From IMG/VR virus record IMGVR_UViG_3300030328_004798, positions 1,466 to 65,465 of that record: a stretch of 64,000 bases of DNA. One strand, 5' to 3'. Each line of letters begins with the position of its first letter. Position 1 is the first letter of the stretch. The notes below the pieces were generated by a model. The model saw nothing but the letters and a program-made list of their open reading frames with translations. It ran no database searches and was not told where the DNA came from. The translations under genes were made by a program, and so were the position numbers. The stretch is from a virus. Below, one piece after another: positions 7,833 through 57,170 of this stretch.

Positions 7833-7858
7833 GCAAAGATTGCGGAAAAATTGAAGAA

Positions 7859-7884
7859 GGGATGCACTAGCATCCCTTTTTTTT
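7859..7884 (+). terminator. Rho-independent terminator
   Basis: A perfect 7-base stem GGGATGC / GCATCCC with a four-base ACTA loop (7859-7876) is followed by eight T residues. It separates the replication/nrd block from the exported-protein cluster. Confidence 0.92.
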
Positions 7885-7897
7885 ATATTTATAAATA
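7884..7897 (+). promoter_or_regulatory. Class B (possible late) promoter box
   Basis: TATATTTATAAATA lies just after the terminator and 22 bases before the start of the T9SS-cargo gene. It contains TATAAATA, identical to the T4 late promoter core, as well as the TATATTTATAA motif found elsewhere in the window. Confidence 0.55.
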
Positions 7898-7918
7898 AAT
7901 TATTAAATAAATTTTATA

Positions 7919-10624
7919 ATGAAAAAATTATTATTATGGTTATGCTTAGCCTTACCTTTTATAGGCATATCCCAAACATATTCTGATACTCCAACTATTT
8001 TTAGAAGTAAACTTACAAATGCTATAGAATTAGGTACTATACCAGAAGATATAAGCATGTACATTATTTTTGATAAATCAACAATAACAGCAACTACTGG
8101 AAATGTTAACCCAGCTTATTCTGAAATTGCTTTAGATGATGATGATGGGAATGGTATTTGGAGACAAGAAATTTATCTAGATATAACAGATCCATCTACT
8201 GATTTATATTTTGTTTATAAAATAGTAGATTCTGATGGTACAGAATATTATGAAGACACAGCGGAGTGTTTATTTTTAGGAACTGATTATGGTTTTACTG
8301 ATGGTAGAGCAAGAAAATTAATACCTAGTGAAATCCCAGGAGATGGACAAGTTAAATTCTGTTGGGATACTTGTGAATGGCAATGTCCTCCTCTTCCTTG
8401 TGAAACAGGATTAACAAATCCATCAGCAGACCAAACATGTATAAATGGTGGTCAAGCTATTATTTATTTTTCATGGGAAACAGAATGTGAGGTACAATCA
8501 GTAATTTACTCAAATGCTGAAGGAGCAGGTCCATTTGAATACCAAGTAAACCCAGATGCAGAACTTTTTGGTGTTTATGCAGGGTATGGTCAAATGCCAC
8601 CTAATTGGAGTGTAGAACATTATTTACAAGTAAAATTTACTGATGATTCTTTATCTGAAGAAATAGTTTATACTCCTGAACCTTGTATAGAAGGATGTAC
8701 TGATCCAAATCAAGAATCTTATAATCCTTGGGCTACTATAGATGATGGTTCTTGTTCAGGGACAACTTGTGATACTGATACACAATATCAAATTACAATG
8801 GAAATTACATTTGATAATTGGCCTAATGAAATTAGTTGGATTATGAATAGTGGTGGAATTATTGGAGAAGTTCCAACTGGAGAATATGATTATAATGATA
8901 TTGGGCAAACTTATACCTACAATTTCTGTATTGACCAAGATGCAGGATTTGAACTTATTGTAAATGATACTTATGGAGATGGTCTAGCTGGATCAACTTC
9001 AGGTGGTAGTTTAGATGGAGAAATAATAATATATGATTGTAATGGTGATATAATTTGGGAAATGGAAGACCCAGATTTCGGATCTACTTTATACTCAGGT
9101 CAACAGTTTGGTATACAATGTGAAGTAACAGAAGAAATTTATGGGTGTACAGACCCAGCTTATCAAGAATATAATCCTGATGCTAATATTGATGATGGTT
9201 CATGTGAAACATTACACATTATAGGATGTATGGATGAAAATTCAATTAATTATAATCCTGATGCTACATTACAAGAAATAATACCAACATGTGATTATAA
9301 CTTAATCTTAAAAGATGCCGCAGGAGATGGATGGGGTAATTCTTTTATAGGTATTACTCAAAATGATGTATCATTAGGAACTTATACAATGGGTCCTGGT
9401 TCACCAGAACAAGTATTTCCTTTAACCTTATCTTCATCACACTCAGTAAAAGTATATTATTTCCAAGTAGGTGGTCCACAATCAACACCAGAAGAAGTAC
9501 AATTCCAAACCTGGCATAATTCATTCTTAATAGAAGGATTAGATGGAGAAATATTAATAAGTGAAGGAGAAAACCCATTTGAAAATAATGGTCAAGGTGC
9601 ACTACAAAACTTTGAATCCCCATTCTTTATAACTTATGAAGCAATGCCATATTGTGGAGATGTTTGTATTCCAATAGTTGAAGGATGTATGACTGAAGGT
9701 TCTTTAAATTATAACCCAGATGCAAATGTAGATGATGGATCTTGTATACCTATTATCTATGGTTGTATGAATGAATTTGCATTCAATTATAACCCAGAAG
9801 CAACTGTTGATGATGGTTCTTGTGAAGATGAAATAGTAGGATGTATGGATCCAGCAGCATTCAATTATAACCCAGATGCTAATACTCCTGGAGATTGTAT
9901 TCCAGTTGTTGAAGGCTGTATGAATGAATTAGCATTTAACTATAATCCTAGTGCTAATGTAGATGATGGTTCTTGTGTACCTGTTATTTATGGTTGTACT
10001 GACCCTACAGCATTTAATTATAATGTAGATGCTAACACAGATAATGGTTCTTGTGTAGAAGTTGTTTATGGTTGTACAGATCCAGATTCTGTTAATTATA
10101 ATCCACTAGCTAATACTGATAATGGAAGTTGTATAACACCAATTGTTGGTTGTACAGATCCAAATTCTTATAATTATGATCCTGACGCTAATGTATCAGA
10201 TCCAGATGCTTGTTTATATGATGCAGGTTGTATTACTGGACCTGGTGAACCGTATTGGTTAAATAATAACTGTTACGCTTGGGTAATTGATGTAGATAAT
10301 TATTGCTGTGATAATGATTGGGATCCAGTATGTCAAGAAATGTATAATTACTGTGAAAATGGGTGGCCTGATGGAATTGATATAAATGGAAGATTCAATA
10401 GATTTAGTGGTATAATTGTTTATCCAAACCCATCTGCCAATATAATTAATATAAATTCAAATGGTTTAGACATAACATACTCAGTTTTTGATGCGACAGG
10501 AAGAATCGTAATTGAAAATTCAAATAAAAACCAAATCGATCTATCAAATGTAGAATCAGGAGTTTATTTACTTACTGTTACTTATGAAGGTCAAACATTT
10601 AATAAAAAAATAATAAAACAATAA
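7919..10624 (+). CDS. Secreted Cys-rich repeat protein with T9SS C-terminal sorting domain
   Basis: A 901-residue protein with a signal peptide (MKKLLLWLCLALPFIGISQ). It has an N-terminal beta-rich region, two Asp/Gly-rich domains around residues 290-400 and 460-580, and ten copies of a 21-residue motif GCxxPxxxNYNPxANxDDGSC, seven of them in tandem at residues 589-765. The last 75 or so residues (VYPNPSANIININ to FNKKIIKQ) match the type A sorting signal of the Bacteroidota type IX secretion system. Such cargo crosses the inner membrane by Sec and the outer membrane by the T9SS, and is then released or anchored on the surface. The DDGSC motifs may bind calcium and pair cysteines. It leads a run of exported genes. 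The role (host surface change, or a virion part) is unknown. Confidence 0.85.
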   Translation: MKKLLLWLCLALPFIGISQTYSDTPTIFRSKLTNAIELGTIPEDISMYIIFDKSTITATTGNVNPAYSEIALDDDDGNGIWRQEIYLDITDPSTDLYFVYKIVDSDGTEYYEDTAECLFLGTDYGFTDGRARKLIPSEIPGDGQVKFCWDTCEWQCPPLPCETGLTNPSADQTCINGGQAIIYFSWETECEVQSVIYSNAEGAGPFEYQVNPDAELFGVYAGYGQMPPNWSVEHYLQVKFTDDSLSEEIVYTPEPCIEGCTDPNQESYNPWATIDDGSCSGTTCDTDTQYQITMEITFDNWPNEISWIMNSGGIIGEVPTGEYDYNDIGQTYTYNFCIDQDAGFELIVNDTYGDGLAGSTSGGSLDGEIIIYDCNGDIIWEMEDPDFGSTLYSGQQFGIQCEVTEEIYGCTDPAYQEYNPDANIDDGSCETLHIIGCMDENSINYNPDATLQEIIPTCDYNLILKDAAGDGWGNSFIGITQNDVSLGTYTMGPGSPEQVFPLTLSSSHSVKVYYFQVGGPQSTPEEVQFQTWHNSFLIEGLDGEILISEGENPFENNGQGALQNFESPFFITYEAMPYCGDVCIPIVEGCMTEGSLNYNPDANVDDGSCIPIIYGCMNEFAFNYNPEATVDDGSCEDEIVGCMDPAAFNYNPDANTPGDCIPVVEGCMNELAFNYNPSANVDDGSCVPVIYGCTDPTAFNYNVDANTDNGSCVEVVYGCTDPDSVNYNPLANTDNGSCITPIVGCTDPNSYNYDPDANVSDPDACLYDAGCITGPGEPYWLNNNCYAWVIDVDNYCCDNDWDPVCQEMYNYCENGWPDGIDINGRFNRFSGIIVYPNPSANIININSNGLDITYSVFDATGRIVIENSNKNQIDLSNVESGVYLLTVTYEGQTFNKKIIKQ
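9683..10213 (+). repeat. Tandem protein-coding repeats (seven of the ten 21-residue units)
   Basis: Seven consecutive units of about 63-78 bases encode GC(M/T)xxxxxNYNPxANxDDGSC. The DNA copies are similar but diverged, so this is an old array. Three further single units occur upstream, at residues 259, about 410 and about 437 of the same protein. Confidence 0.9.
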
Positions 10625-10625
10625 A

Positions 10626-11699
10626 ATGAAAAAATTATTAATATTACTTTTAGTAATACCGTTTCTAGGTTTTAGTCAAGAAAATAAAGAACCTTCTAAA
10701 TTTAAAAAAGATTTAAAAAAGACTTTTAAGTTTTCAACATTCTATGCAGCAGTAAATGGTGGTACTTCTTTATCAGATAGAAATACTTTTACAGTAAATA
10801 CTGGTGCTTTAGTATCTAATGTTATTGAAACACCTTTTGATTATTCTTTAGCATTAGGAATTAGAAAAATTGCAAGATTTGATTACGAAAATAGAGCTAA
10901 TGTATTTTATGATGGTACAGAATCTTCTTTTTCAGATCAAGCTAATGTTGGAAAAATAAAAGGATTTGAATTTTTATTTGAAGGTGATTATAGAAGAATA
11001 CAAGGAGTAAAATATTTAGATCAACACCATTTTATAAGATATGTAGCTGATGATTGGATTGCTAAGGTAGAATATTTATCTAGTGGTTTTGTTGGGATAG
11101 AATATTTTGAAGCATCACAAAGATATAAAAGGAATATAACAAAAGAATTATCAATTAATGTAGGTTCGGCACAAAGATTATCAGAACCCTATGGTTATGA
11201 TCCTTTAGAAGAATGGATGCTTGCTAATGGAAACTTACATTATACTTATTTAGCAATCCAAGAAGGATATAGTGTTAATTTTAACGGCCCAGGTAATACT
11301 GAGTATTTAGACCCTTCTGGAAATGTTGTTGCTAGTAGCACAGCAGTTTGGGAGGAAGTTATTATCCCACAAGTATTAGAAAATTATGTAGAAAAGAAAA
11401 AGAATCAAGCTGATTTAAAATTAGAATATTCTTTAATATTTGGACTAGACTATTACAAATATCAAAAAGATTTTTGGTTTCATGCTTGGGGTAATATAAT
11501 GCCTTATCATGTTAAACAAAATAATACTTTTTCTTACCATAATTATAATGGAGGACAATGGATAGATTATTCTGGAGGTGTTATTTTTGGATATAAGTTA
11601 AATAAATCACTAGGACTATTCGCAGAAGGTACTTATAACAAATACTGGAATAGAAATTGGCATAAATTTTCTATGGGTGTAAATTATATAATTTTTTAA
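10626..11699 (+). CDS. Predicted outer-membrane beta-barrel protein
   Basis: A 357-residue protein with a signal peptide (MKKLLILLLVIPFLGFSQ), many alternating hydrophobic/polar strands rich in Tyr, Phe and Trp, and a C-terminal strand ending GVNYIIF. A terminal Phe is the usual recognition feature for the BAM outer-membrane assembly machinery. It starts one base after the T9SS-cargo gene stops, so the two are likely co-translated. It could anchor or partner that cargo, or alter the outer membrane to block superinfection; neither is shown by the sequence. Some homology to host surface proteins is possible. Confidence 0.7.
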   Translation: MKKLLILLLVIPFLGFSQENKEPSKFKKDLKKTFKFSTFYAAVNGGTSLSDRNTFTVNTGALVSNVIETPFDYSLALGIRKIARFDYENRANVFYDGTESSFSDQANVGKIKGFEFLFEGDYRRIQGVKYLDQHHFIRYVADDWIAKVEYLSSGFVGIEYFEASQRYKRNITKELSINVGSAQRLSEPYGYDPLEEWMLANGNLHYTYLAIQEGYSVNFNGPGNTEYLDPSGNVVASSTAVWEEVIIPQVLENYVEKKKNQADLKLEYSLIFGLDYYKYQKDFWFHAWGNIMPYHVKQNNTFSYHNYNGGQWIDYSGGVIFGYKLNKSLGLFAEGTYNKYWNRNWHKFSMGVNYIIF

Positions 11700-11705
11700 T
11701 AAAAA

Positions 11706-11996
11706 ATGGCAAAAACAAAAGAACTAAGTGAAAATACCAGCTTTACGGTTAGCTTACAAACTTTAGGTGGCATTGCAGCTGCAATAGCAACTGTAATTGG
11801 AATGTGGTTTGCGCTTCAGGCAGATATAGCTGAAGCAAAAGAACTACCAGTTCCACCTCCACCAGATGTTACAAGAATGGAGTATGATATGAAAGATCAA
11901 TTAATCCGTCAAACAATCATGACAACACAAGAAGATGTAAAGGAGCTAAAGGAAGACATGAAACGTATTGAGGAAAAGATTGATGAATTAAGATAA
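11706..11996 (+). CDS. Membrane-anchored coiled-coil protein (96 aa)
   Basis: A 96-residue protein with a hydrophobic segment at about residues 17-38, a proline run (PVPPPPD), and a charged heptad-like helix at 65-96 (EDVKELKEDMKRIEEKIDELR). There is no cleavable signal peptide, so it is probably anchored in the inner membrane with the coiled coil outside or in the periplasm. It sits between two signal-peptide genes in the exported cluster. This layout is seen in spanin-like and other phage envelope proteins, but no specific function is recognised. Confidence 0.65.
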   Translation: MAKTKELSENTSFTVSLQTLGGIAAAIATVIGMWFALQADIAEAKELPVPPPPDVTRMEYDMKDQLIRQTIMTTQEDVKELKEDMKRIEEKIDELR

Positions 11997-12002
11997 TCAA
12001 TT

Positions 12003-12329
12003 ATGAAAAAAGCAATTTTATTATTACTTTTACTTACGAGCACCTCAATTTTTAGTCAAATAACTGTAACCCATTTTAATGCTGGATGGAATGGAGCAAA
12101 TGACGTTAATTGGGTTGAATCATTAACAGATTGTGACGTAACTAAAGTTGATATAGCAAAAGACCCTGCAATCCAAACAAAACATAATGTAGTAGTTGTT
12201 CCAACTATTATAGTTTTTCAAGATGGAGAAGAAGTAAAAAGATTCCAAGCGGATTTAAGTTTTAAAATTGCAGCAACTAAAGAAGACCTTCAAGATTATA
12301 TAGATGAACTCATAATGAGTGCATTTTAA
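12003..12329 (+). CDS. Secreted thioredoxin-fold protein without the CXXC site
   Basis: A 108-residue protein with a signal peptide (MKKAILLLLLLTSTSIFSQ). The remainder has a thioredoxin pattern: strand ITVTHFNA, the active-site region WNGANDV where WCGPC would be expected, strand CDVTKVDIAKDP, then VVVVPTIIVFQDGEEV with the characteristic cis-Pro (VPT). The redox cysteines are gone, so it is probably a binding or chaperone-like member rather than an oxidoreductase. A separate cytoplasmic thioredoxin with an intact WCGPC is encoded at 17287. Confidence 0.75.
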   Translation: MKKAILLLLLLTSTSIFSQITVTHFNAGWNGANDVNWVESLTDCDVTKVDIAKDPAIQTKHNVVVVPTIIVFQDGEEVKRFQADLSFKIAATKEDLQDYIDELIMSAF

Positions 12330-12356
12330 TTTAATATGTATAATAAAAATCAAAAT

Positions 12357-12608
12357 ATGAAAAATTTAATTACAGTTTTATTATTAATTTTTACTTTATC
12401 CCTTTCAGCTCAACAAAAACCATCTAAAGAATGTGTAAAAGTTGTAGTTGAAAGATATGACCATGCTAGAGTAAGTGTTACTACAACTAATACATGTACT
12501 AATGTTATTAAAGTACAAACTTACTTATTAGTAGAATGGAATAAAATTCAAGCTGAGAAAAAAAGAAAATTAAGAAAAAGACGAGCTAAAAGAGTTAAAA
12601 AAGTATAA
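12357..12608 (+). CDS. Small exported basic protein (83 aa)
   Basis: An 83-residue protein with a signal peptide (MKNLITVLLLIFTLSLSAQQ) followed by about 40 neutral residues with two cysteines (SKECV, NTCTN) and a very basic C-terminus (KKRKLRKRRAKRVKKV). The ATG at 12357 is chosen over the in-frame ATG at 12336 because it puts the signal peptide at the extreme N-terminus. The cationic tail could bind lipopolysaccharide, peptidoglycan or nucleic acid outside the cytoplasm. It is not recognised as a known family. Confidence 0.6.
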   Translation: MKNLITVLLLIFTLSLSAQQKPSKECVKVVVERYDHARVSVTTTNTCTNVIKVQTYLLVEWNKIQAEKKRKLRKRRAKRVKKV

Positions 12609-12633
12609 ATAAGTTTTACTAAAGAGTTATATT

Positions 12634-12888
12634 ATGTTTAATTATTTAAAAAGTAAATGGATGGGATTCAAGAACTTATTTGATGATAACAATAATATCA
12701 ATGAAAAATCCGTAGTTGGATTTATTGCTTTTGCTGTAATGGTGTTATTTGCATTTACTGACTTACTAACAGGATACATAGGTAAAGATTTAGTTATTAA
12801 TGAATTTATTTATGACTCTTTTGTTATAGTTGTACTAGGATGTTTTGGTATAGCTGAAGTTGGTAAAATATTTGGCAATAGAAAATAA
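12634..12888 (+). CDS. Two-helix membrane protein, possible holin
   Basis: An 84-residue protein with a charged N-terminus, a hydrophobic segment at about residues 28-48 (VVGFIAFAVMVLFAFTDLLTGY), a polar loop, and a second at about 60-78 (FIYDSFVIVVLGCFGIAEVG). The size, two membrane helices and a basic C-terminus (GNRK) suit a class II holin. The next gene six bases downstream looks like a cell-wall enzyme, which would make a lysis pair. The holin role rests only on topology and position. Confidence 0.55.
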   Translation: MFNYLKSKWMGFKNLFDDNNNINEKSVVGFIAFAVMVLFAFTDLLTGYIGKDLVINEFIYDSFVIVVLGCFGIAEVGKIFGNRK

Positions 12889-12894
12889 TTTATT

Positions 12895-13503
12895 ATGAGT
12901 TGTTACACAAGAGAACAAATAGAAGCCACAATGGCTAGTAAAGGTTATAAATACTTTACTGGTGGTGATTATGATGTAAATATAGTAGGAGTAAGAAACT
13001 CTGAAACTAAAGGTAGAGTTACAAATGCATTTGATGATTGTATGACTGTGTCTTACAAAGTAGATGGTGAATGGAATTTTCATTGTTTTAAATGTACCAC
13101 AGACCCAGGTTCACATTGGGTAGAAAATATTATGAGAGAAGAGGGTGTTGCTATTCTTAAACCTGGTCAATATAGAGGTTCTCATAAATTAGGTTTACAT
13201 CAAGGTAAATATTTAGCCCTAAGACAACAAAAACCAGTTAAAGTTTATAGAGATAATAACTTAGATAATAAACATGACTTATTAGAAGAGTCAGTTCAAG
13301 AAGGAATTTTTGGTATAAACATACATAGAGCTACAGGCAGATCAGGTGGAAAATCTACAAGAGTAGATAAATGGTCCGCTGGTTGTCAGGTAATTGCTCA
13401 TAATGATGATTGGCATATATTTTTAGATATTTGTCAATCTGCAAGAGAAGTTTGGGGTAATTCTTTTACATATACTCTATTAGAAAGTAAAGATATTGTA
13501 TAA
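12895..13503 (+). CDS. Phage cell-wall enzyme candidate with L,D-transpeptidase-like His/Cys signature
   Basis: A 202-residue protein. The C-terminal half has FGINIHRA followed about 25 residues later by KWSAGCQVIA. This resembles the His...SxGC catalytic arrangement of L,D-transpeptidase/YkuD-type enzymes that act on peptidoglycan cross-links. The N-terminal half contains VGVRNS and a motif VAILKPGQY that I associate with proteins of Bacteroidota phages. It has no signal peptide, so it would need a holin, and a holin-like gene lies just upstream. A lysis role is inferred; catalytic assignment needs a structure-based comparison. Confidence 0.5.
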   Translation: MSCYTREQIEATMASKGYKYFTGGDYDVNIVGVRNSETKGRVTNAFDDCMTVSYKVDGEWNFHCFKCTTDPGSHWVENIMREEGVAILKPGQYRGSHKLGLHQGKYLALRQQKPVKVYRDNNLDNKHDLLEESVQEGIFGINIHRATGRSGGKSTRVDKWSAGCQVIAHNDDWHIFLDICQSAREVWGNSFTYTLLESKDIV

Positions 13504-13530
13504 TAACTTGGCTTATTATTAACTCTTCCC

Positions 13531-13543
13531 TATATTTATAATC
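13531..13543 (+). promoter_or_regulatory. Promoter-like box abutting the next start codon
   Basis: TATATTTATAATC ends one base before the ATG at 13544. A TTGG at 13508-13511 lies at the class A spacing (21 bases from first G to the TA). If used as a promoter, transcription would start inside the annotated gene and the in-frame ATG at 13568 would be the first codon. Confidence 0.4.
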
Positions 13544-14665
13544 ATGCTTAAAAATATTAAAAAAGGAATGTTCCCATTCCTAATAGCTTTTTCAGCCCTT
13601 TCAGTATCAGGTTCAGCAGCTTTTTATTCTGTATTTGGTCTGAGTAAATTATTTGCGGGAGCAAGTACAGAAGTAATAATAATGGCGGGATCATTAGAAT
13701 TTGCTAAATTAGTTACGGCTTCACTTTTATATCAGTACTGGGGTACAATAAATAAAATTTTAAGAACTTATTTATCTATTGCTACTATTATTTTAATAAT
13801 TATAACTAGTATGGGTATCTATGGTTTTTTATCAGCAGCATATCAAGACACTTTTAATCAATTAACTTATGTAGAAAATGAAAAAAGTTTCATTCAACAA
13901 AAAGTAAATTTTTATCAACAAGATGTAACAAGATATGAAAATGAACTTAACCAAATTTCAGAAAATATTACTGCTTTATCTAATGCAAGATCCGTCACCA
14001 TTCAAGTCAAAGATACTACTGTGGCTGGAGGTCTTAGAAATACAATTTCAACAGCTGATTTGCGAGCTGCGCAAACTAGACTTGGAATTGAAGAAACTAA
14101 ACGGGAAGATGTCAATATAAAACGAGATATTGCGATAGATTCGTTACGTAAATACCAACGTCAAATACTGGAACTAGATAATAATGTAGAAGTGGCTGGA
14201 GAATTAGGTCCACTTAAGTATTTATCGGGTCTTACCGGTTATCCTATGGATAAAATTATAAATATTTTACTTTTAATTATAATTTTTGTGTTTGATCCAT
14301 TAGCTGTTTCATTAGTAGTAGCTGCTAATTTTGCTTATAATCAAGCTTACCCAAAAATAAGATACAAAAAAAACCTATACCAAGAAAAAGTCGAAGATAA
14401 ACCAAATATTTTCGATTCTTATTCAAAAATAGATGAAGATAGAATGGATATTATAGGTCAAAATGGTAATGATGGGGAGCATTATGATTCTGATGATTTA
14501 AATAAAGATGGAAAAGTAGATGAAAGTGATTTAGAAGTTTATAATAATATGAAAAGTAAATATCCTAAAGGCACAGATGAATGGAATAGAGTTAACCAAG
14601 AAATTGATAGATTAAAGAAAAGAATTAGTGGAAATAAAGATGATGATTTAACAAAAATATATTAA
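13544..14665 (+). CDS. Multi-pass membrane protein with coiled coil and EF-hand-like tail
   Basis: A 373-residue protein with about three N-terminal membrane helices (residues 9-105), a long charged coiled-coil region (about 110-225), another hydrophobic pair (about 240-268), and a cytoplasmic tail carrying DLNKDGKVDESDLE, which matches a calcium-binding EF-hand or dockerin loop (DxNxDGxxxxxD). An alternative start at ATG 13568, just after AAAGGA, would remove eight residues and leave all features intact. The function is not recognised; an envelope or lysis-control role is possible from its position after the possible lysis genes. Confidence 0.65.
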   Translation: MLKNIKKGMFPFLIAFSALSVSGSAAFYSVFGLSKLFAGASTEVIIMAGSLEFAKLVTASLLYQYWGTINKILRTYLSIATIILIIITSMGIYGFLSAAYQDTFNQLTYVENEKSFIQQKVNFYQQDVTRYENELNQISENITALSNARSVTIQVKDTTVAGGLRNTISTADLRAAQTRLGIEETKREDVNIKRDIAIDSLRKYQRQILELDNNVEVAGELGPLKYLSGLTGYPMDKIINILLLIIIFVFDPLAVSLVVAANFAYNQAYPKIRYKKNLYQEKVEDKPNIFDSYSKIDEDRMDIIGQNGNDGEHYDSDDLNKDGKVDESDLEVYNNMKSKYPKGTDEWNRVNQEIDRLKKRISGNKDDDLTKIY

Positions 14666-14667
14666 AA

Positions 14668-14698
14668 TTTGGAATAGCAAAAAAAATTTCGTATATTA
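14668..14698 (+). promoter_or_regulatory. Class A (host-like) promoter for the 7-deazaguanine cluster
   Basis: TTTGG at 14668-14672 and TTTCGTATATTA at 14687-14698 have the standard 19-base spacing. The site lies in the short gap before the gene at 14716 and would drive the queuosine-type modification operon. Confidence 0.65.
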
Positions 14699-14715
14699 CC
14701 CCAAATAAAAGTTAT

Positions 14716-15213
14716 ATGTTCAACCCTCCTTTATCTAGGAATACAGTAAAAAGACGTCTAAAGAATTATCAAAAGCTAAATTATAATCAATTTAGATGGT
14801 GGAGATGGTATGAATCAAAAAACAAACCATTACCCTACAAAGCTAGCTTTCGTGATAAAATTTTAAATGGTGATTTTGACCAATCTCCCTTTATGTTACA
14901 AGCTTATTTATGTGAACATATGATGAATGATATATTAGCTGAATGTGATGAGGATTATCAAAAATTCCTAGAAAAGTCTAAATTATTAGGAGCTAGAAGA
15001 AAAAGATTACTAGAAGATTATGAAAAAGATGAATTTAATAAACTAGATACTATTTATAATTTATTTATAAGAAATTTTGATATTACAAGAGAACAAGTAG
15101 AAAAAGAAGCTTTAGAATGCTGTGGAGAATTAATTGATCTTTATTATATTATAGAAGAAAAATATAGAAAAAAACATTATGTCTCTAAAAGGGGACGACC
15201 TAGAAAAATATGA
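14716..15213 (+). CDS. Hypothetical helical protein, first gene of the 7-deazaguanine operon
   Basis: A 165-residue, largely helical protein with a basic, aromatic N-terminus (NQFRWWRWYESKNKP) and a basic C-terminus (KKHYVSKRGRPRKI). The end resembles an AT-hook-like GRP core. It overlaps the DpdA-like gene by four bases (ATGA) and so is probably co-translated with it. Basic ends and the operon position suggest DNA binding in support of base exchange, but no family is recognised. Confidence 0.65.
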   Translation: MFNPPLSRNTVKRRLKNYQKLNYNQFRWWRWYESKNKPLPYKASFRDKILNGDFDQSPFMLQAYLCEHMMNDILAECDEDYQKFLEKSKLLGARRKRLLEDYEKDEFNKLDTIYNLFIRNFDITREQVEKEALECCGELIDLYYIIEEKYRKKHYVSKRGRPRKI

Positions 15214-16022
15214 AAATAAGTCACGAAGTACCAAAAAGTTTACTAAATGAATCTCTTAATTTTAATGATTATGACTATTGTTTACCCCATTTATTAGATG
15301 AGGATAAAGAATATAGAGAATTTTTTGAATATTCTAAAAAACAAGGACGTTATATTATTATGGATAATTCGCTTCATGAATTAGGAGAAGCATACGACCA
15401 TAAAAGATTATTACATTGGGTTAATAAATTAGAACCAAATGAATTTATTGTGCCTGATGTTTGGATGCAAGGACATATGACGGCAGCTCAAGCTAAATAT
15501 TGGAAACAATTTGAATACCCAGAAAACACAAAAATAACAGCTGTAATACAAGGTAAAGATAAAAATGATGCATATTTATGTGCTAATTTATTACATAACT
15601 TAGGTTATAATAAATTATGTGTATCATATGGAGCAACATGGTACAATGATTTCTTCCCTCACACTAACCCAGATATGGGTAAAGCATTAGGTAGAATTAG
15701 ATTTGTACAAGGATTATTAGCTTTAGACCATTTAAAAAATGTTAAATATCATTTATTAGGATGTTCTATACCTCAAGAATTTGGTTGGTATGATAATCAT
15801 CCTCAAATAGAATCAATAGATACTTCTAACCCAATAATGGCTGGAATAGATAGACATACGTATACAGAACAAGGATTAACAATTAAACCTAAGGCTAATA
15901 TGAATAATCATTTTAATAAAAAATTAAGTGATAATATAGAAATGAGTATAGCCAAAAATATAGGTAAATTTAGAAAAATAAATGGATTTAGACCCTATCC
16001 AAAACATACTGGGTCATTTTAA
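15210..16022 (+). CDS. dpdA: DpdA-like guanine transglycosylase (7-deazaguanine insertion into DNA)
   Basis: A 270-residue protein with TIM-barrel-like alternation and short motifs resembling tRNA-guanine transglycosylases and phage DpdA proteins: IIMDNSLHELGEA, FIVPDVWMQG (an Asp in the PDV block), TAVIQGKD and GYNKLCVSYGA. DpdA proteins exchange guanine in DNA for a 7-deazaguanine base. The call leans on the next genes, which encode QueC, QueD, QueE and FolE, the complete route from GTP to preQ0. It is shorter than bacterial TGT (about 380) and lacks an obvious zinc-site Cys cluster, as expected if the substrate is DNA. Subfamily cannot be fixed by eye. Confidence 0.7.
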   Translation: MKISHEVPKSLLNESLNFNDYDYCLPHLLDEDKEYREFFEYSKKQGRYIIMDNSLHELGEAYDHKRLLHWVNKLEPNEFIVPDVWMQGHMTAAQAKYWKQFEYPENTKITAVIQGKDKNDAYLCANLLHNLGYNKLCVSYGATWYNDFFPHTNPDMGKALGRIRFVQGLLALDHLKNVKYHLLGCSIPQEFGWYDNHPQIESIDTSNPIMAGIDRHTYTEQGLTIKPKANMNNHFNKKLSDNIEMSIAKNIGKFRKINGFRPYPKHTGSF

Positions 16023-16034
16023 TATTTTTTAATT

Positions 16035-16829
16035 ATGAATAAACATGCAATTGTTTCGCTAAGTGGAGGAATGGATAGTTCTACACTTTTACTTAGAGCG
16101 ATATCTGAGTATGATACAGTTACTGCAATATCATTTGACTATGGTCAAAAGCATAGAGTTGAACTTGAAAGAGCAAAATCATTAATTACTTATCTAAATA
16201 TGGAAGGTCATAAGGTAACCTATGAGCAAATTAAATTAGATGGTTTAGTGGATTTGTTAAATTCTGCTTTAGTAGAAGGGGGAGATGATGTCCCAGAAGG
16301 ACACTATGAACAAGATAATATGAAAGAAACAGTAGTACCTAACAGAAATAAAATGTTTGCGTCTATTACACAGGCGGTTGCTTTATCTAAAGCAAATGCC
16401 ACAAAAGAGCAAGTTGATATTTGTTTAGGAATACATGCTGGTGATCATGCAATTTATCCTGATTGTAGACAAGAATTTAGAGACGCTGATGATGCAGCAT
16501 TTAGAATTGGAAATTGGGATGCAGATAGAGTAGGTTATTTTACACCTTATCTTGATACTGATAAATTAGGTATTCTTCAAAATGGAGAATATTTATGTGG
16601 GGTATTAAATGTTGAATTTGACGAAGTTTATTCTAGAACTAATACTAGTTATAAGCCTTATTCTAGTGGGAACAGTGATTATAAATCTGCTTCATCTGTT
16701 GAAAGAATTGAAGCGTTTATTGCTCTGGGTCGTCCGGATCCTGTTCAATATGAAGATGAAACGGGTCCAGTAGATTGGGAAGTAGCTAGAGATTCAGTAG
16801 CTAAAGTATTAGCTGATTATTCAGCTTAA
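16035..16829 (+). CDS. queC: QueC-like 7-cyano-7-deazaguanine synthase lacking the zinc cysteines
   Basis: A 264-residue ATP-pyrophosphatase-fold protein. QueC converts 7-carboxy-7-deazaguanine with ammonia and ATP through an amide to preQ0. The PP-loop SLSGGMDSST (residues 8-17), SFDYGQKH and PNRNKMFASI are all present. The C-terminal zinc ribbon is not: in the block that normally reads SCY...CGxCxxCxxR, this protein reads TSYKPYSSG...DYKSASSVERIEAF (residues 204-228), so all four cysteines are replaced. The reading frame is intact. The enzyme might be zinc-independent or stop at the amide (ADG) product. It sits 12 bases after the DpdA-like gene. Confidence 0.88.
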   Translation: MNKHAIVSLSGGMDSSTLLLRAISEYDTVTAISFDYGQKHRVELERAKSLITYLNMEGHKVTYEQIKLDGLVDLLNSALVEGGDDVPEGHYEQDNMKETVVPNRNKMFASITQAVALSKANATKEQVDICLGIHAGDHAIYPDCRQEFRDADDAAFRIGNWDADRVGYFTPYLDTDKLGILQNGEYLCGVLNVEFDEVYSRTNTSYKPYSSGNSDYKSASSVERIEAFIALGRPDPVQYEDETGPVDWEVARDSVAKVLADYSA

Positions 16830-17286: not shown

Positions 17287-17535
17287 ATGAATATTATTTT
17301 ATATTTTACAGCAGCATGGTGTGGTCCTTGTAAAGCACTAGCTCCAAGAATGGAAAAATTAAAAGGACAAATTAACTATAGAAAAATTGATATTGATCAA
17401 AATCAAGAAATGTCAATGAAATATGGTGTAAGAAGTGTTCCTAGTTTGGTTTTAGTTAATCAAAACGGAGAAGAGATAAGACGTATGGTTGGTCTCCAAT
17501 CAGACGATAAAATTTTAAATTTTTATAATGGGTAA
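17287..17535 (+). CDS. Thioredoxin
   Basis: An 82-residue thioredoxin-fold protein with the active site AAWCGPCKAL (residues 9-18), a following strand INYRKIDIDQN and the cis-Pro motif RSVPSLVLVNQNG. It is short, like T4-type phage thioredoxins and glutaredoxins. It probably reduces the C-terminal disulfide of the phage NrdA, which has a CVSC tail. It overlaps the QueD gene by eight bases. Confidence 0.9.
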   Translation: MNIILYFTAAWCGPCKALAPRMEKLKGQINYRKIDIDQNQEMSMKYGVRSVPSLVLVNQNGEEIRRMVGLQSDDKILNFYNG

Positions 17536-31003: not shown

Positions 31004-31204
31004 ATGAGTAATAATAAAAAAATGACACTAACTAGTGTTAAAGTAAAGAGCGATTTATTCGACAATTTCAAAATCGAGTGTGTTAGACGTAAATTTTCTT
31101 TTCAAAAACTTGCTGATCGTAGCTTGTTTTTGTATCTTACAGATGAGAATTTCCGTAAACAAATAACAAACCAAATAAATCTCGATTTACAAAATGAAGA
31201 ATAA
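31004..31204 (+). CDS. Small protein, possible ribbon-helix-helix regulator
   Basis: A 66-residue protein with strand MTLTSVKVKSDLFDNFKIECVRRKFSFQKLADRSLFLYL: a short strand followed by two helices, the order expected for an Arc/MetJ-type ribbon-helix-helix DNA-binding protein. It opens the sugar cassette and overlaps the first glycosyltransferase by 11 bases, so it could autoregulate the cassette. This is inferred from length and pattern only. Confidence 0.5.
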   Translation: MSNNKKMTLTSVKVKSDLFDNFKIECVRRKFSFQKLADRSLFLYLTDENFRKQITNQINLDLQNEE

Positions 31205-32636
31205 TAAATTTCCATACTTACCAAAAGAAAAAAGAAAGAAAATATTATTAATTTGTGACGACATCAGAGTACATTCTGGGGTAGCCACAGTAGCAAAAGA
31301 AATAGTAGTCCATACTGCCCATCATTTTAATTGGGTACAAATGGCAGGAGCGATCAAACACCCAGAAAGTGGTAAGAGATTAGATTTAACACCTGATACT
31401 AATAATTTAGCTGGAATAAATGATTCTTCTGTATTTTTATATCCTGTAGATGGGTATGGTCACCCACAACAAGTTAGACAAATAATTAACATAGAAAAGC
31501 CTGATGCTATTATGTTATTTACTGATCCAAGGTATTTTACCCATATTTTTAATATGGAACAAGAAATACGAAGAAATATTCCAATTACATACTTAAATAT
31601 TTGGGATGACTACCCAGCTCCAATGTATAATAGAGCATTTTATGAGTCATGTGATTTATTAATGGGAATTTCTAAACAAACTGTAAATATTAATAAATTA
31701 GTATTAAAAGGACATGAAGGTAATAGAATATTTAAATATCTACCTCATGGTAAAGATGAAAATATATATTATCCTATAGTTAATAAAGATAAAGAATATG
31801 AAGTATCTATTAATAATCTATTCAAAGGACAAAAACCGAAATTTGTAGCATTTTATAATTCTAGAAATATAAGAAGAAAACAAGTACCAGATACTATGTT
31901 AGCTTTTAGAGCGTTCTTAGATTCTCTACCAGAAGATGAAGCTAAAGATTGTTATTTAATTATAAAATCAGAACCAGTTACAGATCCAGGTACTGATTTA
32001 CCTAAAGTTAAAGAATATTTGTTTGATGAAAAATATCCTAATAATATTAAATTTATTTTTGGAAAAATAGAAGAAAAACATCTAAACCATTTATATAATA
32101 TAGCTGATGTTCAGATATTATTAACATCTAATGAAGGTTGGGGGTTAGCAAATACAGAGGCAATATTAGCTGGAACTCCAATTATAGCTAATGTTACTGG
32201 AGGTATGCAAGATCAAATGAGATTTGTAGATGAAAATGGAAAATGGTTTACACCTAGTGCAGATATTCCTTCTAATCATAGAGGAACTTATAAAAAACAC
32301 GGTGAATGGGCGTTCCCAGTTTATCCAACAAGTAGATCGATTCAAGGTTCACCTCCAACACCTTATATCTTTGATGACAGATGTAGATGGGAAGATGCAG
32401 CTGATAGATTAAAAGAATGTTATAAGTTAGGAAGAAAAGAATTAAAGAGAAGAGGTTTAAAAGGAAGAGAATGGGCTATTAGTAATGAAGCTGGTTTTAC
32501 TTCTGAACAACAAGGTAATAAAGTAATGGAGGTATTTAATGAATTATTTGATACTTGGAAGCCAAGAGAAAAATATGAATTAGTTAATACCAATGAATAT
32601 AAAGGTAAATTTTTAAATCATAAAATAATATATTAA
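31194..32636 (+). CDS. Glycosyltransferase, GT4-like
   Basis: A 480-residue GT-B-fold protein. The N-terminal domain begins KKILLICDDIRVHSGVATVAKEIV. The C-terminal nucleotide-sugar domain has FKFVAFYNSRNIRRKQ, IKFIFGKIEEKHLNHLYNIADVQILLTSNEGWGLANTEAILAGTPII, which is the classical GT4 ExxxGxxxxEAxxxGxPVI pattern. It transfers a sugar from a nucleotide donor, substrate unknown. One-base overlap with the next glycosyltransferase. Confidence 0.88.
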   Translation: MKNNKFPYLPKEKRKKILLICDDIRVHSGVATVAKEIVVHTAHHFNWVQMAGAIKHPESGKRLDLTPDTNNLAGINDSSVFLYPVDGYGHPQQVRQIINIEKPDAIMLFTDPRYFTHIFNMEQEIRRNIPITYLNIWDDYPAPMYNRAFYESCDLLMGISKQTVNINKLVLKGHEGNRIFKYLPHGKDENIYYPIVNKDKEYEVSINNLFKGQKPKFVAFYNSRNIRRKQVPDTMLAFRAFLDSLPEDEAKDCYLIIKSEPVTDPGTDLPKVKEYLFDEKYPNNIKFIFGKIEEKHLNHLYNIADVQILLTSNEGWGLANTEAILAGTPIIANVTGGMQDQMRFVDENGKWFTPSADIPSNHRGTYKKHGEWAFPVYPTSRSIQGSPPTPYIFDDRCRWEDAADRLKECYKLGRKELKRRGLKGREWAISNEAGFTSEQQGNKVMEVFNELFDTWKPREKYELVNTNEYKGKFLNHKIIY

Positions 32637-33931
32637 TGAGTAAACCAAGATTTGTAATATCATGCCCTTTTGATACCTACTCAGGTTATGGGGCTAGAGC
32701 AAGAGATGTAGTTAAAGCTATTATTGAATTAGATAAATATAAGGTTGAATTATTATCTCAAAGATGGGGAGAAACATCTTGGGGATTTTGTAAAGATCAT
32801 CCTGAATGGAAATTTTTGTATAAACATTTAGCAACCCATGAGTGGCAAAAAGTACAACCTGATATTTGGATGCAAATTACAATCCCAAATGAATTCCAAC
32901 CAGTAGGAAAATATAATATAGGATTAACTGCAGGGATTGAAGCTACGGCTTGTAAAGCAGAATGGATTGAAGGATTAAATAGAATGGATATGAATTGGGT
33001 ATCATCTAATTTCTCAAAAAGAACACTCGAATCTATGGTATTTGATCAAAAAGATCAACAATCCCAACAAATAATTGGACAAGTTAAACTCCAAAAACCA
33101 ATAGAAGTTTTATTTGAAGGTGTTGATATAACTAAATACAAAACAATCCCATCATCAGATATTAAAAATATAACATTAAAAAATTTAAAAGAATCATTTT
33201 GTTATTTATTTGTTGGTCATTGGATGCAAGGTGAAGTAGGTCATGATAGAAAAAATGTTGGAATATTAGTTAAAAATTTCTACGAAGCGTTTAAAGACAA
33301 ACGAGGACCAAAACCAGCATTAATATTAAAATGTTCAACTGGGGTAGCTTCATATATGAGTAGAGATGCTATATTAGATAAAATTAAACAAATTAGACAA
33401 GGACTTAAATCTTCAAATTTACCTAATATTTATTTACTTAATGGTGAATTTAATGATTCTGAGATGAATGAATTATATAATCATCCTAAAGTTAAAGCTA
33501 TGGTTAGTTTAACTAAAGGAGAAGGTTTTGGAAGGCCTTTATTAGAATTTAGTATGACTGGAAAACCAATAATAGCATCAGGTTGGTCGGGACATATTGA
33601 TTTTCTTAACCCAGAATTTGTTTCTTTACTTCCTGGTACATTAGAAAATGTTCATCCTAGTGCTGCTAATGACTGGTTAGTAAAAGAAGCTAAGTGGTTT
33701 CAAGTAAGTTATAGTCATTCTTTATCGATATTTAAAGATATGTTTAAAAATTATAAAAAATATATAGTTAAAGGTAAAAAACAAAAATATTATGCTAAAT
33801 CTAATTTTAGTTGGGAAAAGATGAAAGAATTTATTAATACAAAACTTGATGTAAATGTTCCTCAATTTGCCCAACAAGTAGAATTAAAATTACCTGAACT
33901 AAATTTACCTAATTTAAAAAAAGTTAAATAA
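32636..33931 (+). CDS. Glycosyltransferase, GT4-like
   Basis: A 431-residue GT-B-type protein. The start SCPFDTYSGYGARARDVVKAI and the donor domain CYLFVGHWMQGEVGHDRKNVGILVKNF, then NPKVKAMVSLTKGEGFGRPLLEFSMTGKPIIASGWSGH support the call. It overlaps neighbours by one base on each side (TAATG). Specificity unknown. Confidence 0.86.
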   Translation: MSKPRFVISCPFDTYSGYGARARDVVKAIIELDKYKVELLSQRWGETSWGFCKDHPEWKFLYKHLATHEWQKVQPDIWMQITIPNEFQPVGKYNIGLTAGIEATACKAEWIEGLNRMDMNWVSSNFSKRTLESMVFDQKDQQSQQIIGQVKLQKPIEVLFEGVDITKYKTIPSSDIKNITLKNLKESFCYLFVGHWMQGEVGHDRKNVGILVKNFYEAFKDKRGPKPALILKCSTGVASYMSRDAILDKIKQIRQGLKSSNLPNIYLLNGEFNDSEMNELYNHPKVKAMVSLTKGEGFGRPLLEFSMTGKPIIASGWSGHIDFLNPEFVSLLPGTLENVHPSAANDWLVKEAKWFQVSYSHSLSIFKDMFKNYKKYIVKGKKQKYYAKSNFSWEKMKEFINTKLDVNVPQFAQQVELKLPELNLPNLKKVK

Positions 33932-34374
33932 TGAAATTTGATGAATTAAGAGAATGTTCTCGTTGTGGATCTGATGCTTGTTACAGACAAGAAATAAGTA
34001 AAGATGTATCTATTGAATTATGTTATGGATGTGGTTTCCAATCTAATTCAATAATGAAAAAAGGAAGTAAGTTTTTTAATGAACAATGGGAATTATTACC
34101 TGAACTTTATAAAGTATTAATGGATGAAGAAGAAGATAATGGTAAAATTTGGATGCCATCTCACATTAATGTTAAAGAAAAAGGAATGATATTTGCTACT
34201 GGAAATGGAAGAAGTAATTGGAGATGGGGAGCTGTAAAATCAATTCCGGTATCTAAGGAAGAAAAAGAAAAATACAAAGGAGAAGAATACAAATCAGATA
34301 TGAGTACTGTAAAATATTTTATGGAAAGAGATTTTATGGAAGCTTTATCTTATATAGGAATAATACCAGAATAA
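33931..34374 (+). CDS. Zinc-ribbon hypothetical protein (147 aa)
   Basis: A 147-residue protein with an N-terminal Cys pair set (ECSRCGSDACY...LCYGCGF) of the CxxC-x16-CxxC kind, likely holding one zinc. The remainder is unrecognised, with a WMPSHINV segment and a basic lysine stretch. It lies between a glycosyltransferase and an epimerase and may be a phage accessory protein rather than a sugar enzyme. Confidence 0.65.
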   Translation: MKFDELRECSRCGSDACYRQEISKDVSIELCYGCGFQSNSIMKKGSKFFNEQWELLPELYKVLMDEEEDNGKIWMPSHINVKEKGMIFATGNGRSNWRWGAVKSIPVSKEEKEKYKGEEYKSDMSTVKYFMERDFMEALSYIGIIPE

Positions 34375-34375
34375 T

Positions 34376-35275
34376 ATGAAAATACTAGTTACAGGAGCTG
34401 CTGGGTTTATTGGCACTAATTTAATAAAAAGATTAATAAAAGAAGGACATGAAGTCCATGGTCTAGACGATTTTTCAACTGGTTATCGTGAAAATAAAGT
34501 AAAGGATGTTCCCTATATTGAACAAGATGTAAGTGATCTAAAGTATTGGGGAGAAGATGAGGGTTATAAAAAATTATATGAAGGATTAGGTAATACAAGA
34601 TTAAGTAATGATTATAATCTAATATATCATTTAGCTGGATTATCTAGAATCCAACCATCATTTAATAACCCAGATGAAACATTTAAAGTTAATACTATTG
34701 GTACTCAAAAAGTTTGTGAGTATGCTAGAATAATAGGAGCAAAAGTTGTTTATGCTGGTTCATCTTCTAAATGGCATAATCCTTATCAATCACCTTATTC
34801 TACTTGTAAGTATTTAGGAGAAGAAATTTGTAAGATGTATAAACTTACTTATGGAATGGACATTGAAATAGCTCGTTTTTATAATGTTTATGGTCCTTAT
34901 GAAGTAATAGATGGAGATTGGGCTGCTGTTATTGGTATATGGAGAAGACAGGTTAGAGATGGTGAAGAAATTACAATAGTAGGAGATGGTGAACAAAGAA
35001 GAGATTTTACTCATGTAGATGACATAGTAGATGGATTATGGAGAATTGGAATGAAAAATAAAAAACATGAAGATGCTTGGGAATTAGGAACGGGAAATAA
35101 TTATTCTATAAATGAAGTATATCAAATGTTTAAAAATAAATTTAACGTTAATTGTACTTACCTTCCTGACCAAAAAGGAAACTATAGAGTTACTTTAAGA
35201 GAAAGAGATGATGCTTTAGGTTTATTAGGATGGCAACCTAAAGATAGATTAAAAGAATATATACAAAGTTTATGA
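34376..35275 (+). CDS. NAD-dependent nucleotide-sugar epimerase/dehydratase
   Basis: A 299-residue extended SDR protein. It has the Rossmann motif VTGAAGFIGTNL at residues 5-16, an Asp ending beta-2 (GLDDFSTG), catalytic Ser (AGSSSKW) and YxxxK (PYSTCKYLG), and RFYNVYGPYE. Similar to UDP-glucose 4-epimerases. It overlaps the GT2 gene by four bases. Confidence 0.86.
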   Translation: MKILVTGAAGFIGTNLIKRLIKEGHEVHGLDDFSTGYRENKVKDVPYIEQDVSDLKYWGEDEGYKKLYEGLGNTRLSNDYNLIYHLAGLSRIQPSFNNPDETFKVNTIGTQKVCEYARIIGAKVVYAGSSSKWHNPYQSPYSTCKYLGEEICKMYKLTYGMDIEIARFYNVYGPYEVIDGDWAAVIGIWRRQVRDGEEITIVGDGEQRRDFTHVDDIVDGLWRIGMKNKKHEDAWELGTGNNYSINEVYQMFKNKFNVNCTYLPDQKGNYRVTLRERDDALGLLGWQPKDRLKEYIQSL

Positions 35276-35898
35276 AAATAAGTTATGCTATTACAGTTTG
35301 TAATGAATTTGTTGAAATACAAAAATTAGTTCTATTTTTGTTAGACCATAAAAGAATAGAAGATGAAATTGTAATTCTTTATGACCATAAAAATGGGGAT
35401 GAAGGAGTTGAGGAATTTTTAAGAAGTCATTCGGTTAATTGTGAATTTATGTGGCATAAAGGTGATTTTCATAATCACTTTGCAGATTGGAAAAATAAAT
35501 TAACTGATTTATGTTCTGGGGATTATATTTTTCAAATAGATGCAGATGAAGTCCCAAATAGATTATTAATTAAAAGTCTACCTAAAATATTAGAATCAAA
35601 CCAAGATACTAATGATGTTTATTTAGTTCCAAGAGTAAATACAGTAGAAGGATTAACTGATGAACATATAAAAAAATGGGGATGGAAAGTTAATGCAAAA
35701 AATTGGGTTAATTGGCCTGATTATCAATGGCGTATTTGGAAAAATAAGCCTGAGATTAAATGGATAAATAAAGTTCATGAAAAATTAGAGGGTCATAAAA
35801 CTTATGGAGCACTTCCTCCAATGGAAGATTTAGCATTATATCACCCTAAAACTATAGATAGACAAGAAAAACAAAATAATTATTATAATACTCTTTAA
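35272..35898 (+). CDS. Glycosyltransferase family 2-like (short)
   Basis: A 208-residue GT-A-fold protein with ISYAITVCNEFVEIQK, a nucleotide-binding VILYDHKNGD, and IFQIDADEVPN (the DxD-type metal motif). Short compared with typical GT2 enzymes (about 250-330), resembling the WaaE/KdtX type that adds a sugar to LPS core. Substrate not known. Confidence 0.8.
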   Translation: MKISYAITVCNEFVEIQKLVLFLLDHKRIEDEIVILYDHKNGDEGVEEFLRSHSVNCEFMWHKGDFHNHFADWKNKLTDLCSGDYIFQIDADEVPNRLLIKSLPKILESNQDTNDVYLVPRVNTVEGLTDEHIKKWGWKVNAKNWVNWPDYQWRIWKNKPEIKWINKVHEKLEGHKTYGALPPMEDLALYHPKTIDRQEKQNNYYNTL

Positions 35899-35899
35899 G

Positions 35900-36040
35900 A
35901 TGGCAGATAATCAAAATAATGGTAATACTCAACTTAATACTGATAGAAATAATTTAAATCAAAGAGTTAGTAAACTAGCGTATTTAGGTAAAAGTAGTAA
36001 AGTAAAATGGTCTGATAGAAGACGCTTTAGAAATATATAA
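35900..36040 (+). CDS. Small basic polar protein (46 aa)
   Basis: A 46-residue frame from ATG 35900 to TAA 36040, abutting the next gene's ATG without a gap. It is Asn/Gln-rich at the start and basic at the end (KVKWSDRRRFRNI). It fills a gap of 142 bases in a packed region. Function not recognised. Confidence 0.5.
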   Translation: MADNQNNGNTQLNTDRNNLNQRVSKLAYLGKSSKVKWSDRRRFRNI

Positions 36041-56825: not shown

Positions 56826-57170
56826 ATGGATATTAATATAATTGGTTTTAGGTTGCCAACGGCTACACCTGATCCCGCAAGACATTCTTCTTGTGGTTGG
56901 GTAGCGATCTGTGATAAAAAGGAAGTTGGTTGGTGTAATATGTCTTTTTTACCAAATAATGTAATCAAATTTGAAGATGCATTCGTTAAACCAGAATACA
57001 GGGGTAAGGGAATTTATAAAATGTTATGGGAATTTAGATTTAATTACGTAAGTGAGCACTTCAATAATTATAAATTAATGGCTTACTGTAAGCCTTCTAC
57101 ATTAAAACATTATAAAAAACAAGGTTTTATTGAAAAAGAAATCATAACTCTTGTTGAGAAACCCGCGTAA
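56826..57170 (+). CDS. GNAT-family N-acetyltransferase
   Basis: A 114-residue GNAT protein. The acetyl-CoA motif is AFVKPEYRGKGIYKMLWEFRFNYV (RGxGIGK-type with R-G-K-G), preceded by strand GWVAICDKKEVGWCNM and followed by YCKPSTLKHYKKQGF. It transfers an acetyl group to an amine, substrate unknown. Standalone transcription unit between a class B box and a class A promoter. Confidence 0.82.
   Translation: MDINIIGFRLPTATPDPARHSSCGWVAICDKKEVGWCNMSFLPNNVIKFEDAFVKPEYRGKGIYKMLWEFRFNYVSEHFNNYKLMAYCKPSTLKHYKKQGFIEKEIITLVEKPA

Follow-up and report, generated by a model that had tools for sequence, protein, structure and literature searches.

Why does a phage carry a run of genes for proteins with export leaders, headed by one that ends in a sorting domain of the type IX secretion system (T9SS)? 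The question is raised by IMG/VR record IMGVR_UViG_3300030328_004798, a virus record of 69,542 bases of which we analyzed bases 1466 to 65465 (64,000 nucleotides (nt), hereafter the window, in which positions are given unless another record is named). Five plus-strand open reading frames (ORFs) of 901, 357, 96, 108, and 90 amino acids (aa), with only 1 to 6 nt between neighbors, make up the run. A sequence-only reading had described them as an envelope-directed module of five genes, four with signal peptides and one membrane-anchored, set between a terminator and lysis-like genes. The layout proved to be as described: the ORFs extend from 7919–10624 to 12336–12608, a terminator-like hairpin (13 pairs, loop of 4, T run) precedes them on the plus strand at 7853–7882, and two further genes follow directly, for a membrane protein of 84 aa and a lysin-like protein of 202 aa. 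The conserved set, however, consists of the first four genes, which recur together across a large phage group. We named them T9 (7919–10624, 901 aa, an exported Cys-rich repeat protein and predicted T9SS cargo), BB (10626–11699, 357 aa, a predicted outer-membrane beta-barrel with a leader), TMcc (11706–11996, 96 aa, one transmembrane segment and a coiled-coil-like tail), and Trx (12003–12329, 108 aa, an exported thioredoxin fold). As a tentative answer, we propose that this module helps the phage to mask or remodel the surface of its host late in infection.

The gene order of the window was found again well beyond it, as dozens of viral contigs show the first four genes together. A scan for BB gave 66 viral contigs, and a scan for TMcc gave at least 591 confirmed viral stretches (591 of the 600 listed), from which 80 loci were kept; the two locus sets overlap and hold some near-identical loci, and the counts are not independent events. 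Trx lay within 1.2 kb downstream of TMcc in 78 of the 80 loci, with BB in 72 and a sorting domain in 59. Of these TMcc loci, 39 had 6 kb of flanking sequence to each side; there, Trx was found in all 39, BB in 38, and the sorting domain in 33. In the remaining six, we found a repeat protein of the same kind whose tail is shorter, for example ITDLLGRP...YDDG...KKFIK. Likewise, among the 32 of the 66 BB loci that were well flanked (at least four genes to the left and six to the right), TMcc was within three genes in 28, Trx within four in 31, and T9 within four in 30. TIGR04183 was also searched for in 50 records, namely that of the window and those of 49 of the 66 BB loci; it was found in 39, with a single match in each except for one record with two. 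Moreover, all four genes had a ratio of nonsynonymous to synonymous substitution rates (dN/dS) below 1 in every pair that allowed an estimate of both rates (13 pairs tried), and the module genes are under purifying selection. Because the four genes recur together in dozens of viral contigs and have dN/dS below 1, we consider that the module is not a product of chance. Neighboring module genes had very different dS values in some pairs of loci (L007 and L011, L013 and L018), which suggests recombination inside the module.

The fifth gene of the run (12336–12608) had been described as a cationic exported peptide, and its charge and leader agree with that: the mature peptide has 19 Lys or Arg residues against 5 Asp or Glu, and its only family match (phrog_26162, 22.7 bits) lies mostly over the leader. 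It was found at 1 of the 66 BB loci, the second locus set not having been searched for it. Across the module, that locus (L003) encodes the same protein sequences as the window, which leaves membership of the 90-aa gene in the module unsupported. Deposited phages gave no match by tblastn to BB, T9, TMcc, or the sorting domain (E limits of 0.01, 0.001, 0.01, and 1, respectively), and two divergent BB proteins gave partial matches at best, with E of 0.1 or worse.

The last residues of T9 (834–901 of 901, positions 10418–10621) matched TIGR04183 with 56.2 bits (cut-off 23) and PF18962 with 53.4 bits (cut-off 27). With both curated cut-offs exceeded, a genuine T9SS type A sorting domain, as in the sequence-only reading, is well supported, and so is, as a sequence signal, the predicted use of the host T9SS. 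The best PDB match of the domain by sequence was the endonuclease chain 8glk_D (E = 2.9e-7), from an entry whose title names a T9SS complex with its NucA substrate bound. Foldseek with the whole-T9 model returned the same chain (E = 3.3e-4, TMt 0.80, root-mean-square deviation (rmsd) 2.2, 74 columns, 32% identity) at rank 35, the higher rows being mostly fibronectin-, cytokine-receptor-, and Ig-like proteins aligned over long stretches with a low TM-score. The T9 model is weak outside the sorting domain, with a mean predicted local distance difference test (pLDDT) of 66.4 for the whole protein and a predicted TM-score (pTM) of 0.33, and for this reason we dropped any naming of other domains. 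T9 contains 41 cysteines and, by our own pattern, nine repeats of the GC-NYNP-DDGSC type; seven of these nine GC[MT]-x-NYNP-x-DDGSC repeats form a main tract at 9683–10213 on the plus strand. The number of repeats varies among relatives in the alignment.

Three further observations concern T9-like proteins. In L148, L182, L196, L200, L206, L208, L046, and L055, a short conserved tail (D-LGRP...Y-DGT-EKK) replaces the full sorting domain and is possibly a compact sorting signal. Leaderless proteins of about 1530 aa that start with MFRQF and share the Cys-rich repeats are encoded in L043 (1429–6012), L055 (297–4895), and L066 (363–4958); these are possibly virion proteins. Finally, L150 and L152 each have two sorting-domain matches beside one module.

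Four of the five proteins of the run begin with a hydrophobic leader, after which come a small residue and Gln; in T9, the leader ends in GIS with Gln at the predicted +1 position. Leader followed by Gln is known as the Q-rule of Bacteroidetes (PMC5837995), a signature of Bacteroidota signal peptidase I substrates that the window proteins fit. The strict pattern was present in 34 of 34 distinct T9 proteins, 49 of 52 BB, and 40 of 50 Trx, and in none of the 45 TMcc proteins, which served as control. Gln was nonetheless correctly placed in two of the three BB misses listed and in six of the eight listed for Trx. TMcc has one hydrophobic segment and no leader with a small residue and Gln. The pattern agrees with the earlier assignment of four leader-bearing proteins and one membrane protein.

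The predicted beta-barrel also held up on modeling. AlphaFold, with an alignment of 39 sequences, modeled BB as a barrel of about 14 long strands with a helical insert (mean pLDDT 73.7, pTM 0.69). The best solved match in Foldseek was NanC (E = 5.1e-6), and VIA-align placed the model near OmpG (Z 11.6, rmsd 5.1, 186 residues aligned), a TOC-TIC chain (Z 11.6), and CymA (Z 11.2). Outer-membrane barrels in general were returned by the fold search, with one TOC-TIC chain among the top rows. Chain F of 6h3i, which we take to be PorV, ranked 37 (Z 8.9), under other barrels at Z 10 to 11.6; some likeness of BB to PorV is visible, but on these scores it does not stand out. We rejected BB as a PorP/SprF protein: there was no such Pfam or NCBIfam match at E ≤ 1, in a search where HMMER filters can lose weak matches, and no such Pfam match among the 39 BB members at E ≤ 0.1. 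Pfam gave nothing for BB beyond weak, unrelated matches. A viral protein that is unnamed in the tables (A0A516LKJ4) matched BB with 22% identity (E = 1.2e-26). A non-phage origin of BB was likewise rejected. Nine BB matches came from genome contigs, four of which (L099, L100, L101, and L102) hold several phage-module genes and one (L105) both BB and TMcc; the other four had at most one further match to the phage proteins used. For the BB contigs assigned to Maricaulis or Woesearchaeota, the binning was probably wrong.

For TMcc, the alignment shows one transmembrane segment followed by a Pro-rich linker and a coiled-coil-like tail, and in most loci TMcc is nearer to the window copy than BB is. 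Trx, previously read as a redox-dead secreted thioredoxin, matched Thioredoxin PF00085 with 24.8 bits (cut-off 23.5). The fold was also recovered by PDB profile matches, from a profile that included two active thioredoxins. The alignment shows an invariant proline at the place of the cis-proline and a C-terminal Phe in most copies, and WNxxN replaces WCxxC, with NxxN at about 12090–12101 on the plus strand. This loss is general: of 109 distinct high-scoring copies, 105 have NxxN, two NxxA, and one NxxK, the pattern is misplaced in one, and CxxC occurs in none. All seven low-scoring hits, which we took as ordinary thioredoxins, have CxxC. The reading of Trx as a redox-dead thioredoxin is supported. 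L003 also encodes an 82-aa thioredoxin with WCGPC downstream, and the window has an 82-aa ORF (17287–17535) in the corresponding place.

We then placed the module in its genomes with the help of two large relatives, a 119-kb record (G004) and a 138-kb record (G028). G028 has genes for a T4-type major head protein, portal, terminase, tail sheath, and baseplate, G004 has relatives of the G028 head-protein and sheath genes, and most genes common to G004 and the window are 60 to 90% identical. These phages are T4-like. The module is found outside the recognised head and tail genes in both large relatives: at 43.8–49.9 kb in G028, about 31 kb from the nearest recognised baseplate gene (81.2 kb), and at 37.7–43.6 kb in G004, about 20 kb from the sheath relative. 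Among deposited head proteins, those closest to the G028 protein were from Microcystis phage Mel-JY01 (52.1%) and Flavobacterium phage vB_FspM_immuto_2-6A (51.1%, hereafter immuto). The host is probably a member of the Bacteroidota, to judge from the sorting domain and leaders among other features weighed below.

With respect to timing, G004 and G028 have a late-promoter-like motif of the ATATTTATAA type before many of their head and tail genes, and a consensus match to it occurs at 7883–7902 on the plus strand of the window, starting 36 nt before the T9 gene. A motif matrix was trained on 12 sites of G004, all of them outside the module; with it, the region upstream of T9 scored 12.0 in the window (99% null 10.5) and 13.4 in G004 (null 10.2), T9 being one of three genes above the null in the window and one of sixteen in G004. 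Because the motif scores before T9, late expression is likely in the window's own clade. The T4 late promoter TATAAATA was rejected as a candidate, as it was no more than 90 nt upstream of a gene at 2 of 7 sites in the window, 1 of 11 in G004, and 10 of 23 in G028. Its reverse complement was in such a position at 6 of 17, 17 of 31, and 20 of 39 sites, respectively; the ATATTTATAA motif came from this reverse-complement control and was therefore chosen after looking. In many other loci, T9 closely trails another gene. G028 also has a second upstream motif, TTGGATAAGTC and TATATTTATATA separated by a spacer, before several genes (e.g., at 57050, 57454, 65001, and 67456), which is perhaps the early promoter of these phages.

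What, then, might the module do? Because of their gene company, the four proteins likely form one envelope-spanning set. T9 would exit by Sec and then by the host type IX system, to be displayed on the outside of the infected cell or released from it. BB would sit in the outer membrane, and TMcc, anchored in the inner membrane, would extend into the periplasm, where the dead Trx could serve as a binding or folding adaptor; so placed, BB, TMcc, and Trx would make the set span the envelope, perhaps as a physical complex. The module would probably be expressed late, and its purpose would be to mask the surface at that stage, such that other phages fail to adsorb and progeny do not rebind the dying cell or its debris. 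This late masking or remodelling of the surface is our best guess, and we hold it only tentatively. The window also encodes glycosyltransferases together with a Nol-like carbamoyltransferase at 31194–40936, and a glycosyltransferase cluster occurs in immuto too; the presence of several such enzymes in the window is consistent with a surface change.

Several observations weigh against this proposal. Nothing ties T9 to receptor masking, and contact among the four proteins is only proposed. The motif reached p ≤ 0.01 in only 6 of 30 T9 upstream regions of other loci (L003, L006, L007, L008, L015, and L027), among which L008 is G004 and L003 repeats the window, and no motif precedes T9 of G028 (score 2.9). 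TIGR04183 is missing from 11 of the 50 records searched, many records being fragments. A lipobox-like leader is present in 15 of 52 distinct BB proteins (e.g., L041, L046, L055, and L206), so the export route of those may differ, with a lipoprotein route possible; these relatives may be lipidated barrels. The closest deposited head protein belongs to a phage recorded from Microcystis, a cyanobacterial host, and the grounds for a Bacteroidota host are therefore the T9SS domain, the Q-rule, immuto, and gene order rather than the head protein alone. Lastly, the frequent company of lysis-type genes also fits a role in lysis.

In that account, the module would be accessory to lysis, with TMcc as a spanin-like inner-membrane protein and BB as its outer-membrane partner, disrupting the outer membrane together with the holin-like protein and the lysin, and with T9 loosening or marking the cell surface. 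In the window, these genes follow the module with gaps of 6 to 25 nt, and no plus-strand terminator-like site intervenes, the next one after the upstream hairpin being at 13564. The 84-aa membrane protein (12634–12888, plus strand) is holin-like by position only and has just a weak family match (TssN, E = 0.0038, below the cut-off). The 202-aa protein (12895–13503, plus strand) matched phrog_3000 with 122 bits and the endolysin family phrog_33083 with 57 bits, and has relatives in 24 deposited phage records, several of them from Bacteroides phages. In 27 of the 32 well-flanked BB loci, a lysis-type gene was found within eight genes, counting the 84-aa putative holin, though the type of lysin varies between loci (phrog_33083 type, DUF5675, amidase, or M15). 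For both G004 and G028, the sole lysin found by the profiles used lies a few hundred bases after Trx. The lipobox-like leaders of some BB proteins would also suit a spanin partner. On the other side, among the 40 TMcc loci with 5 kb on both sides, a lysin of the modelled type was within 5 kb in only 12, a holin-like gene (the 84-aa protein is within that distance in many TMcc loci) in 27, and either of them in 28; the holin-type gene of G028 is far off, at 114.3 kb. The spanin profile matched TMcc only weakly (phrog_739, E = 0.14), the BB of the window is without the lipobox expected of the lipoprotein partner in a two-component spanin, and lysis needs neither a T9SS cargo nor a thioredoxin. 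The link with lysis genes is hence frequent but not universal, and in immuto some 27 kb separate the exported block described below from the lysis genes annotated in that phage. We consider accessory lysis unlikely, while ranking it second to late masking.

More unlikely still, in our view, is that BB, the dead Trx, and TMcc span the envelope as an adaptor of the phage's making, with which its cargo would be docked to the host type IX machine late in infection. The cell would be coated in this way, and a large uncultured group of T4-like Bacteroidota phages would routinely wrap its dying host in phage protein. An improbable alternative, third in our ranking, is that T9 acts as an adhesin that sticks infected cells to particles or neighbors, or that it overloads the host T9SS and thereby blocks the export of gliding and surface proteins. 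Its long Cys-rich repeat stalk with a variable number of repeats, the matches to fibronectin/Ig-like and adhesin folds at low TM-score, and the sorting domain would all suit such a role. However, fold matches of this kind are common and were obtained with a weak model, and the roles of BB, TMcc, and Trx would be left unexplained. That the proteins are components of the virion or of its assembly, which we rank last, is highly improbable given the leaders on three of the four conserved proteins, the T9SS sorting domain, and the location of the module away from head and tail genes, even if proteins near it in L196 and L200 resemble tail or lectin-type proteins (by eye only) and leaderless phage proteins with such repeats occur in L043, L055, and L066.

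The proposed late masking by the phage envelope module can also be set beside systems already known. The prophage porin Lc of PA-2 and Llp of T5 are examples of outer-membrane proteins with which phages prevent superinfection or shield their progeny. These differ from the module in being single proteins, from phages of Enterobacteria, with no T9SS involved. Closer in kind is Cryophage, a phage of Bacteroidetes that also encodes T9SS type A sorting-domain proteins, for which its authors, in the part of the paper available, suggest a hijack of the host with superinfection exclusion among the roles and speak of a unique occurrence of T9SS cargo in a phage (PMC7468147). Its genome is 76 kb, its cargo comprises an endoglucanase, a GH39 hydrolase, and a PA14 protein and varies with the strain, and that part of the text describes no barrel, coiled-coil, or dead thioredoxin partner (PMC7468147). 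Gut phages of the BACON cluster similarly have T9SS sorting-domain proteins, but the genes are near head genes, and no such module is described in the portion available (PMC6949934). An endolysin assisted by a piece of SprA is reported in another paper (PMC12628812). The sequence-only reading had suggested surface remodelling or superinfection exclusion by a system whose make-up it did not know from described phages. For the four-part module this agrees with the open-licence literature, mostly screened by title and abstract, in which we found no description of it, whereas a T9SS cargo and the idea of superinfection exclusion were already in print for Cryophage. Open-licence work on superinfection exclusion with outer-membrane proteins, screened at the level of title and abstract, likewise held nothing of the module's kind.

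A further comparison is with immuto (MW353175, L121), a T4-like isolate and the only one of nine deposited phage records, picked by relatedness or by hand, in which PF18962 was found. Its exported block consists of genes 13 to 19 (10527–16409 of that record), located after an SSB-RecA-exonuclease-DnaB-RNR backbone in common with the module phages, then two nuclease genes. Six of the seven block proteins have a leader and then Gln, one short protein has a single hydrophobic segment, and the product of gene 15 has a T9SS sorting domain (46.5 bits; PF18962, 37.8 bits). The parts differ, since the cargo of gene 15 is a cohesin-domain protein and gene 13 encodes a C-type lectin domain. Over the first 100 kb of immuto, the BB profile matched nothing (best E = 0.62), the Trx profile clearly matched only an ordinary thioredoxin, gene 16 was reached by the TMcc profile with E = 0.14, and gene 15 by the T9 profile with E = 9.7e-4. 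With leaders and a T9SS cargo but otherwise other components, the immuto block indicates that the site and the logic recur with different parts.

If the proposal is true, use of type IX secretion would be a standard step of infection in a large phage group and not the curiosity of one genome. Since immuto is an isolated phage with an analogous block, the idea of surface export is testable. A testable role would also be on offer for a thioredoxin that has retained its fold with both cysteines swapped for asparagine. More broadly, the module raises the question of how a phage may rewrite the surface of its host through the host's own secretion system, and why it would do so at that time.

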